NCBI GenBank assembly: GCA_015069335.1 | Contig: SVIU01000006.1 | Coordinates: 1-46,374, forward strand | Direction: 5' to 3' | DNA: 46,374 nucleotides | Source of the DNA: Clostridiales bacterium | GTDB lineage: Bacteria > Bacillota > Clostridia > Christensenellales > UBA1242 | Part shown: piece by piece, positions 712 to 19,074 of the stretch | Position numbering within the stretch: the first letter of the stretch is position 1 | Layout of the letters: each line of letters starts with the position of its first letter | Notes under the pieces: model-generated | The model's input: the letters and a program-made list of their open reading frames with translations, nothing else | Databases searched by the model: none | Told to the model about the DNA's origin: nothing | Position numbers and translations under genes: made by a program

Positions 712-871
712 ACGCTATAATTGTATAAACGACGAGTAATATTGCAAAGCATTGTTTTAGAGTTGGGGTTTCATTAAATTTAAAAACACTAGCCTTAACC
801 ACCAAAGTTTAGCGAAAAAAATCGTCAAAAAACATTTTTTTGAGATTTTTTGAAAAACTTTAAAATTTTAC

Positions 872-902
872 TTGACTTAATTCCGGGGGGGGTAAACTAT
901 AT
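872..902 (+). promoter_or_regulatory. Putative promoter with a G8 homopolymer in the -35/-10 spacer
   Basis: TTGACT (872-877), taattccGGGGGGGGtaa, then an AT-rich -10-like taaactatat, 30 bp upstream of the ATG at 932. Confidence 0.5.
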
Positions 903-931
903 GTGAATTTCTAAAAAAGGGAGAAAAAACA

Positions 932-2251
932 ATGAAAAAGAAGTTTAGTTTAATATTAAACATTGCAACCATTTGCCTATGTGTATGTGCCATTGCCATA
1001 GGTGTATGGTCGGCAAAAAATGCTCAACTTGCCGTAAGCGGTAGTGTGGGATTTCAAGCAAACCATTGCAATGTAGACGCAACTATTGCATTTACGGGCA
1101 TGGCAACAACCGAGGGTGGCGAGGTAAGCCAAACGCCAGTTAATGTATTGGATGACGCAACAGACTCAGCCAATTTGCAAATACGTGGTCAAGATATGTC
1201 AGCATCGTTTGCAGACATATACTTTACCGATATGCCAAGTTATGATAATGCACAACCAATAACAATGACGTTTTCATTTACAAACCAATCAAATTTTGAA
1301 GTAGATGTATTTATAACCTTACCAACAATAACCAATGTAAGTTACACAAAAGACTCAGTAGCGGTAGAAAACAACCAAGTATATACCAAACTAGGCACAG
1401 CTCAAGGCAAAACACAAAAAACAATAGCAATAGTGTTAAACCTATCAGAATCAGCAACAGGCTTAACAAAAGCCGAATATAGTTTTGGAGTAGAGTTTAA
1501 GCAATCACCACTTAAGGTAATTGATGATCTTTATTGGGGTGCTTGGATTGAGGAGGTTTATGACGATAACGGAGAGGAAGTAATAGATCATAACTATGGT
1601 CTAGTAGAAAGACCAGCGATTGTTTTGGATCTTGGATATGATCAAAACACTAAACCAATACGTTGGTTTGCATATAAATATGATCGAAACGGAGACGGTG
1701 TTCCAGAAACACCAACCGATAATCTTAGCAGAAGTCAGTTGTTAAATTTATTACAAACAGATACGACATATGCGTTTATTTCCTATGAGCATACTTTTGA
1801 AGTAGATTATGGTACATTTGAAAATTTTGACCCTATGGAAGAGAGTACATGGCCAACATATTTAGATAGTGATGCTAAAACATATTTTGATGAGTTTCGA
1901 ACAAATTATAATATCCCAACTCAAGGAAGTTTATATCAAAAACAGATATTGCCTACAATAGTTGGAGAGGAAGACGGCAATAATGTTTATCAAAAAATTA
2001 CTCCACATTATTATGCTCAGGTTCACTTAGAACACAGTAACGATGCGGATGAATGGGTTATCGGGCCAAATGGTGATAGTGGAGAGTCGCATGTTTGGAG
2101 TGTTGATATGGGTGGCGAGGATAACTATCAAATATGTACGTATTATTTTGAATGGCATGCAGAAGAACTTTATTTTAGTGCCCAATATAGTGCTTGGGGT
2201 ACTTTGGATACGAGTGCGCCATGGCGCGGTAGTTTTATGTTTTTGGGCTAA
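932..2251 (+). CDS. Secreted protein, TasA/camelysin-like N-terminal region with unique C-terminal domain (paralog 1)
   Basis: 439-aa ORF, RBS gggag, N-terminus MKKKFSLILNIATICLCVCAIAIGVWSAKNAQLAVSGSVGFQA nearly identical to that of the ORF at 17671. Confidence 0.8.
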   Translation: MKKKFSLILNIATICLCVCAIAIGVWSAKNAQLAVSGSVGFQANHCNVDATIAFTGMATTEGGEVSQTPVNVLDDATDSANLQIRGQDMSASFADIYFTDMPSYDNAQPITMTFSFTNQSNFEVDVFITLPTITNVSYTKDSVAVENNQVYTKLGTAQGKTQKTIAIVLNLSESATGLTKAEYSFGVEFKQSPLKVIDDLYWGAWIEEVYDDNGEEVIDHNYGLVERPAIVLDLGYDQNTKPIRWFAYKYDRNGDGVPETPTDNLSRSQLLNLLQTDTTYAFISYEHTFEVDYGTFENFDPMEESTWPTYLDSDAKTYFDEFRTNYNIPTQGSLYQKQILPTIVGEEDGNNVYQKITPHYYAQVHLEHSNDADEWVIGPNGDSGESHVWSVDMGGEDNYQICTYYFEWHAEELYFSAQYSAWGTLDTSAPWRGSFMFLG

Positions 2252-17342: not shown

Positions 17343-17555
17343 AATTTTTTTTAAACCCAACACTTCGTCGCTAGAACAACCTATAACTTCGCATAAAATA
17401 GCAAAGGTTGGAACCGAAGGCAAAATTCTTCCTGACAAATACTGAGAAAGTGTGGGCGCAGAAATTTTTACCTCTTCGGCAATTTGTTTTTTAGTTTTGC
17501 CACAATGTTCAATTTCATATTTTAAATTTTTAGTTATTTCTTTTTCATTAATCAT
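17340..17555 (-). CDS. XRE-family HTH transcriptional regulator
   Basis: 71 aa: KTKKQIAEEVKISAPTLSQYLSGRILPSVPTFAILCEVIGCSSDEVLG. Confidence 0.9.
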   Translation of the reverse strand: MINEKEITKNLKYEIEHCGKTKKQIAEEVKISAPTLSQYLSGRILPSVPTFAILCEVIGCSSDEVLGLKKI

Positions 17556-17567
17556 AAAAAAATTATA

Positions 17568-17582
17568 TTAGGTATTGCCTAA
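17568..17582. promoter_or_regulatory. Operator O1 (TTAGGTATTGCCTAA)
   Basis: 15-bp palindrome, same consensus as O2 and O3, next to XRE start. Confidence 0.75.
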
Positions 17583-17588
17583 AATTGT

Positions 17589-17618
17589 TTGACAATTAGG
17601 TAACACCTAATTTATAAT
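17589..17618 (+). promoter_or_regulatory. Consensus sigma-A-type promoter for paralog 2
   Basis: TTGACA (17589-17594)-N18-TATAAT (17613-17618). Confidence 0.85.
17596..17610. promoter_or_regulatory. Operator O2 (TTAGGTAACACCTAA), inside the promoter spacer
   Basis: 15-bp palindrome between the -35 and -10. Confidence 0.8.
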
Positions 17619-17628
17619 GTAACTAAAT

Positions 17629-17643
17629 TTAGGCAATGCCTAA
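17629..17643. promoter_or_regulatory. Operator O3 (TTAGGCAATGCCTAA), just downstream of predicted +1
   Basis: 15-bp palindrome matching O1 and O2. Confidence 0.8.
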
Positions 17644-17670
17644 GTTTGTGTTAGAAATTTAGGAGGAAAT

Positions 17671-19074
17671 ATGAAGAGAAAATTTAGTTTAATATTAAAC
17701 ATTGCTACCATTTGCCTATGTGTATGTGCCCTAGCCATAGGCGTATGGTCGGCAAAGCGGGCACAGTTTTCAGTAACAGGTAACATTGGCTTTACCGCAC
17801 ACAATTGTGATGTTGTTGCAACCACTTATATTCAAAATGCAATAAGAAAAGATGCAAACAACGAGTGGGAGCAAATATCAAACAGCCAAGCACAATGGTC
17901 AAGCGAAACAGACAATACAAATACGTCAATATATGTATCAAACAATGACTCATATACTTTTGGTTCAATATATTTTGATGACTGGTTTAATGAGGTTGCA
18001 TCAACTATAAGAATAAAAGTGGTGGTAGAAAACTATTCATTATTCCCAGTTTCAGCAAGGCTAACAACCTTACGTGTTGGTGGTACACAAATACAAAACT
18101 TTGACAATATATATGAAACAGAAAATTATGCTTTAGTGGCGTTGCACAATGACTACATTAGAGCCGCTTCAAAAGAAGGCAACACAATAATACCATTCGA
18201 AGATCAAATGGTTATAGAAATAACCCTACTAGACCAATACGAATCTTTTGACCTACAAGCCTTTTCATTTGGCATAGAGTTTGCCCAAACCGAAACACCA
18301 AGCGTTGAAGATGGATACGTTATCGAAGAGGCGTTTTATTATGATGAAAATTTTGATGAGGTGACGGTTTTAGCGTTGACTGGAGTCCCAGAATGGTCGG
18401 AGAATAAAAGCAAGCATATTACACTGCCAAATCAAGTTGTAGATGATCAAGGAAAATTAATAGATATTTCTTATTTAAAAGACATTGCTGGTGATGATGC
18501 TTATACTTCATTAACAATGTCTAGCGGGTTGGATTTTTGCTATTGTAACTCATCTTATGAATTCGAAGAGTCACCATTAAAAGGGATTTTACTATCTGAT
18601 TCTATAACTCAATTTTATGGGACTTTTGAGTGTTGTGAAGATTTATATTCTCTTACAATTCCAAGTGATTTTAAAAATTTTGGCATGCGGGGCGAGTATC
18701 ACGCATTATATTGTGATTCGTATTCTCTTTATGTTGAAACTGATAATCAGAATTTTTATTCGCAAGATAATTGTATAATGGAAAAGGCAAATCCAACAAA
18801 GCTGATAGTAGGAAGTTCTCAAAGTGTAATTCCTAATTATATTACACACATTTTTGACCATGCATTTTTCTATTGTGAAATGGAAAGTATAACAATTCCA
18901 GTTGGCGTGTCAACTATAGGCGAGACGGCGTTTGGTTGGTGTTATAATTTATCAACAATAATTTTTAGAGGTACAATGTCGCAATGGAATTCCGTTGACA
19001 AAGCGGATAATTGGATAGACGGTTGCCCAGCGACAAAAGTTGTTTGTAGTGATGGTATAGTGCCAATAACCTAA
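17671..19074 (+). CDS. Secreted protein, TasA/camelysin-like N-terminal region with BspA-type leucine-rich repeats (paralog 2)
   Basis: MKRKFSLILNIATICLCVCALAIGVWSAKRAQFSVTGNIGFTA; C-terminal LRR_5 pattern ITHIFDHAFFYCEMESITIPVGVSTIGETAFGWCYNLSTIIFRGT. Confidence 0.82.
   Translation: MKRKFSLILNIATICLCVCALAIGVWSAKRAQFSVTGNIGFTAHNCDVVATTYIQNAIRKDANNEWEQISNSQAQWSSETDNTNTSIYVSNNDSYTFGSIYFDDWFNEVASTIRIKVVVENYSLFPVSARLTTLRVGGTQIQNFDNIYETENYALVALHNDYIRAASKEGNTIIPFEDQMVIEITLLDQYESFDLQAFSFGIEFAQTETPSVEDGYVIEEAFYYDENFDEVTVLALTGVPEWSENKSKHITLPNQVVDDQGKLIDISYLKDIAGDDAYTSLTMSSGLDFCYCNSSYEFEESPLKGILLSDSITQFYGTFECCEDLYSLTIPSDFKNFGMRGEYHALYCDSYSLYVETDNQNFYSQDNCIMEKANPTKLIVGSSQSVIPNYITHIFDHAFFYCEMESITIPVGVSTIGETAFGWCYNLSTIIFRGTMSQWNSVDKADNWIDGCPATKVVCSDGIVPIT

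Follow-up and report, generated by a model that had tools for sequence, protein, structure and literature searches.

The closest described analogue of the promoter considered here is that of porA in Neisseria meningitidis, where a poly-G tract lies between the -35 and -10 elements of a surface-protein gene. Expression of porA is graded by single G residues: surface expression drops twofold when the tract goes from 11G to 10G, and thirteenfold at 9G (PMC3639595). The optimum porA spacer is stated as 17 base pairs (bp) (PMC7864442). In Mycoplasma hyorhinis, several paralogous surface-protein genes, the vlp genes (seven in strain HUB-1, PMC4198240), each have a promoter homopolymer of their own and are switched at the level of transcription (PMC10502178). 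Homopolymers also occur in the promoters of the related surface genes fim2, fim3 and fimX of Bordetella, where the length of the C-stretch alters transcription (PMC1891110), and in Treponema pallidum, where poly-G of 8-10 affects transcription of the tpr surface-protein genes (PMC7864442). A comparable layout was found in contig SVIU01000006.1 of a Clostridiales bacterium (assembly GCA_015069335.1); this whole stretch of 46,374 nucleotides is called the window below. Here a run of eight G (G8) lies between the hexamers TTGACT and TAAACT upstream of a gene encoding a secreted surface protein.

The likely explanation is slipped-strand phase variation of the spacer of a sigma-70-type promoter, repeated across a family of paralogous surface proteins. 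It is suggested by the following observed features: the layout itself, its repetition, the conservation of spacer length, the differing tract lengths of copies whose flanks are identical, the purity of the tract and the association with exported proteins.

The poly-G promoter and its copies

The order TTGACT, G8, -10-like sequence and the distance of 40-47 bp between the tract and the ATG at position 932, both claimed in the initial annotation, are confirmed by the sequence. The tract is also isolated, as had been said: the 46 kb window contains no other G run longer than five. The spacers proposed for the competing -10 candidates, 15 bp for TAAACT and 19-20 bp for CTATAT/TATATG, are correct, and the earlier doubt over which of them serves is settled by comparison: as the sibling promoters show a homologous element, TAAACT is the homologous -10. 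A generic sigma-70 promoter scan with spacers of 16-18 bp does not list this site, because its spacer of 15 bp falls outside that range.

By itself, a lone G8 is weak, marginal evidence, as 0.10 such runs are expected per window and at least one occurs in 7 of 100 shuffled windows. The full layout, TTGAC-N5-9-G6-N0-7-TANANT, occurs in none of the 100. The window is contig 20 of an assembly of 1.01 Mb in 54 contigs. At least seven consecutive G occur at 25 places in this genome, and at least nine (G9+) at 17, against 0.38 expected. Of the 20 runs with at least eight G, fourteen lie in one and the same context of A/T tracts, TTGACA, seven bases, G8-10 and TAAACT, so that each of the 14 copies has a homopolymer of about eight or more between the -35 and the -10. 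The A/T tracts of the sibling promoters occupy the equivalent position and are of similar type but different sequence. Eleven copies have G9, the window copy and that on contig 54 have G8, and the remaining copy, at a contig end, has at least G10.

Two congeners carry the same pattern 40 and 19 times, with none for the reversed-pattern control, and two other congeners do not carry it. Among genomes of the bacterial family, with a single genome for each species, it is present in 123 of 298, representing 28 of 42 genera, with up to 40 copies per genome; the reversed pattern is found in 3 of the 298, with one match each. The carriers are uncultured Clostridia, mostly from gut or faecal sources (chicken, rabbit, deer and others).

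Spacer statistics were collected for at least 237 copies, among the matches listed, with a pattern that permitted spacers of about 10 to 21 bp. A spacer of 16 bp is the mode (164 copies), followed by 15 bp (41) and 17 bp (18), and the working range of 15-17 bp holds 223 of the 237. The length of the tract compensates for that of the preceding bases: the most frequent tract is G9 after a prefix of seven bases and G8 after a prefix of eight. The number of G is anticorrelated with the rest of the spacer both in all listed rows (Spearman -0.49) and in 107 unique sequences (Spearman -0.31, shuffle p 0.0016). Within one genome, tract length differs between copies whose flanks are identical: in G111 tracts of G7, G8, G9 and G10 occur in 1, 2, 10 and 1 copies, and in G124 G8 and G9 occur in 5 and 4 copies. 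An internally interrupted tract was found in none of 64 copies from three genomes, with up to three mismatches allowed. A search of 19 genomes for the poly-C counterpart of the pattern found almost none, the exception being G239 with five copies and a C9 tract. Because G239 has poly-C spacers, the homopolymer seems to matter more than a G-specific site. Taken together, the sequences fit maintenance of a homopolymer with selection on the total spacer length better than a binding site specific for G.

For the analysis of downstream genes, the first downstream open reading frame (ORF) with a Shine-Dalgarno-like site was taken as the gene, and export was called from a hydrophobic, uncharged stretch of 12 residues near the N terminus, a crude rule and not SignalP. 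In at least 80 named loci, listed as matches to a strict G9/16-bp pattern in a collection of 85,462 genomes, 54 of 64 genes behind poly-G promoters encode such an N-terminal export or membrane segment. At these loci, ordinary promoters lacking the tract are followed by such a gene in 9 of 54 cases (Fisher p 5e-14), and of all ORFs there 143 of 496 qualify. With one vote per genome, the proportions are 40 of 50 versus 4 of 29, and after removal of recognised family members 33 of 42 genes still qualify. In seven genomes of the bacterial family, 65 of 70 downstream genes qualify as exported or membrane. Their products mostly belong to paralogous families that are specific to the genome and vary in their C-terminal parts, and some proteins of the relatives carry BspA-type leucine-rich repeats or DUF6273.

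The listed matches to the strict pattern include Treponema, Selenomonadales, Lachnospiraceae and Bacilli. Such promoters precede exported-protein genes in Treponema (L143, L147, L151), Selenomonadales (L181, L194, L207, L212) and Bacilli (L167). Unrelated lineages may have come to this layout independently.

Proposed switching and its alternatives

In the proposed mechanism, G8 would be the adjustable part of the spacer. Slipped-strand mispairing at replication would add or remove one G per step, and each change would alter the distance and the helical phase between TTGACT and TAAACT. The altered geometry of the two elements would make transcription of the surface-protein gene at 932 stronger or weaker, and independent slips at many loci could produce a population whose surface coats are mixed. 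If the porA rule holds here, the common setting of 16 bp (seven bases and G9) would be intermediate; one additional G would make 17 bp, the usual optimum, and a strong promoter, and one G fewer would make 15 bp and a weak one. As porA expression falls with stepwise loss of G, the analogy predicts that the window copy, with its 15 bp, is a weak promoter or close to off in the population that was sequenced. That any one locus slips, how often it would do so and what this would do to transcription are points of inference.

Several facts weigh against this mechanism. The tract is nearly always G9 in the genus of the window, and in G001 all 13 copies that share one type of flank have it; thus switching may be rare, or it may be hidden by selection or by consensus assembly. 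No length difference at the same locus was found between strains, as an 800-base query against 112 genomes yielded only paralogues and diverged matches, with orthologous promoters too different for a comparison. Some copies share both promoter and gene through recent duplication, and hence not all are independent. Finally, mutS is present in the genome of the window. As mutS lowers slippage at mononucleotide runs, switching rates may be modest. Instability caused by a loss of mismatch repair was considered and rejected, since mutS was found in 11 of 12 genomes, including that of the window.

One alternative is that the promoters form a fixed class, with a constant G tract indifferent to slippage, which coordinates surface-protein genes and is recognised by a dedicated regulator, a sigma factor or a DNA-shape effect; the length differences would then be occasional neutral drift. 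The near-constancy of G9 in the genus, the absence of internal interruptions in three genomes and the use of one design for a functionally coherent gene set would all agree with this. We nevertheless consider it unlikely, as it is the spacer length and not the number of G that is conserved between lineages, C tracts replace the G tracts in one lineage, tract lengths change by single G residues between identical flanks, and both the -35 and the -10 are hexamers of the ordinary sigma-70 type.

It is considerably less probable still that the promoter has been copied within a mobile or recombining 5' repeat, with the G tract as a passenger and the coat varied by 5' recombination. Although several copies in the genome have a near-identical leader past the -10, and many contigs end there, the window copy has no shared leader. 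Moreover, the core formed by the -35, the tract and the -10 persists at loci of G001 and G002 that differ upstream of the -35, and recurs in unrelated protein families and unrelated phyla. A chance G run or a sequencing or assembly artefact near a gene, for which only the lone G8 in shuffled windows could be cited, is refuted by the absence of the full layout from the shuffles, the excess of G9+ runs, the copies in congeners and family genomes with near-empty controls, and the recurrence of the layout across many independent genome projects; its probability is negligible.

Slipped-strand phase variation remains the preferred explanation. The initial annotation had put the promoter forward as a candidate for phase variation, with its operation stated to be inferred, and the comparison supports this candidate by 14 loci in the genome, the 123 family genomes, conservation of spacer length but not of G number, length variation between identical flanks, the poly-C lineage and the bias to exported proteins downstream.

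The paralogous family and neighbouring features

Features of the promoter and the two paralogous genes in the window
Feature	Positions	Strand	Basis
A/T-tract-rich stretch ahead of the -35, putative UP-like element	832-871	+	sequence
-35 element TTGACT (TTGACA in siblings)	872-877	+	sequence and sibling comparison
promoter spacer of 15 bp, TAATTCC (878-884) and G8	878-892	+	sequence
G8 homopolymer, proposed slippage tract	885-892	+	sequence, run counts, shuffles
-10 element TAAACT	893-898	+	identical in 14 of 14 copies in the genome
Shine-Dalgarno-like AAGGGAG	917-923	+	sequence
secreted surface-protein gene: signal segment, beta-sandwich N-domain, C-terminal part	932-2251	+	sequence, N-domain model
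second paralog, contrast case without G tract; promoter with palindromic operators	17671-19074	+	

The protein encoded at 932 has about 16 other paralogs in the genome (about 17 in total), most of them with a common N-terminal segment. The poly-G promoter was found upstream of six, including the window gene (contigs C20, C25, C27, C39, C51 and C33). Three further paralogs begin less than 100 bases from contig ends, and their promoter regions lie beyond the assembled sequence. The poly-G design precedes at least six members of the family, and probably nine or more. The remaining paralogs use other promoters, with palindromic operators in two of them (on C15 and at 17671 of the window). No close relatives of the window protein were found among named genomes. 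A model of the N-domain (predicted local distance difference test score, pLDDT, 75) is a beta-sandwich. The model of the whole protein was too poor and was set aside (mean pLDDT 39). A FimA/Ig-like family is not claimed for the N-domain, since the matches in a PDB search were weak (template modelling score, TM, 0.35), and a TasA/camelysin-like identity was considered and dropped as it gave no match.

In the region 17345-17670, the promoter of the paralog at 17671 is flanked by three palindromes of the TTAGG...CCTAA type and by a divergently encoded protein of 71 amino acids with a Cro/C1-type helix-turn-helix (HTH) domain (Pfam HTH_3, 1.4e-10). One possibility is that this protein and the palindromes form a repressor switch for the same protein family. 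The C15 paralog (L033) likewise lacks a G tract, and its promoter, upstream of the start, is overlapped by a palindromic operator of another sequence, ACGAAAAATATTCGT.

Runs of G7-G9 were also found in the Shine-Dalgarno position, 2-7 bases before the ATG, at C48:13958 (L056), C52:841 (L058), C31:9091 (L051) and C39:2078 (L054). The tract length at these sites might affect translation.

The ends of contigs C4, C5, C12, C16, C19, C30, C33 and C54 lie about 300 bp or less from a poly-G promoter, inside a shared leader. This leader has a possible hairpin, whose sequence differs in some copies. Such repeated leaders break the assembly, and may recombine. At the start of the window contig, upstream of the surface-protein gene, positions 1-782 contain three direct repeats of about 290 bp with inverted repeats and no evident gene (1-204; 291-494, 98%; a partial copy starting at 579).

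Comparison with known systems

A literature search, with most subscription papers outside its scope, gave no report of such a system in these Clostridia. The mechanism is known in kind, and the host group and the scale appear to be unreported. The promoter pattern alone yields 10-40 candidate switches per genome in several family members, and the question of switching can be addressed in existing metagenome reads. The promoter pattern also serves as a simple means of finding exported surface proteins in several phyla. We tentatively suggest, with some doubt, that these small-genome, host-associated Clostridia, which are not known pathogens, have one of the largest multi-locus repertoires of transcriptional phase variation, with as many as 40 equal promoters within about 1.2 Mb, each with a middle setting of 16 bp that would be raised by one additional G and nearly shut off by the loss of one; this would amount to a combinatorial surface code outside known pathogens.

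The proposed switch would act in the manner of porA and, with one for each paralog concerned, in that of the vlp family. The resemblance to each known system is partial. The T. pallidum genes belong to another phylum, and in the cited discussion tprL is set against porA, where the tract lies clearly between the -10 and the -35 (PMC7864442). The vlp genes of M. hyorhinis have poly-A tracts and encode lipoproteins, unlike the poly-G promoters described here, and no sequence relation between the two is expected. In the Clostridia switching is a proposal, and the usual spacer is 16 bp. Finally, porA is one gene with one tract, whereas genomes of these uncultured Clostridia contain up to 40 promoters of the same design.
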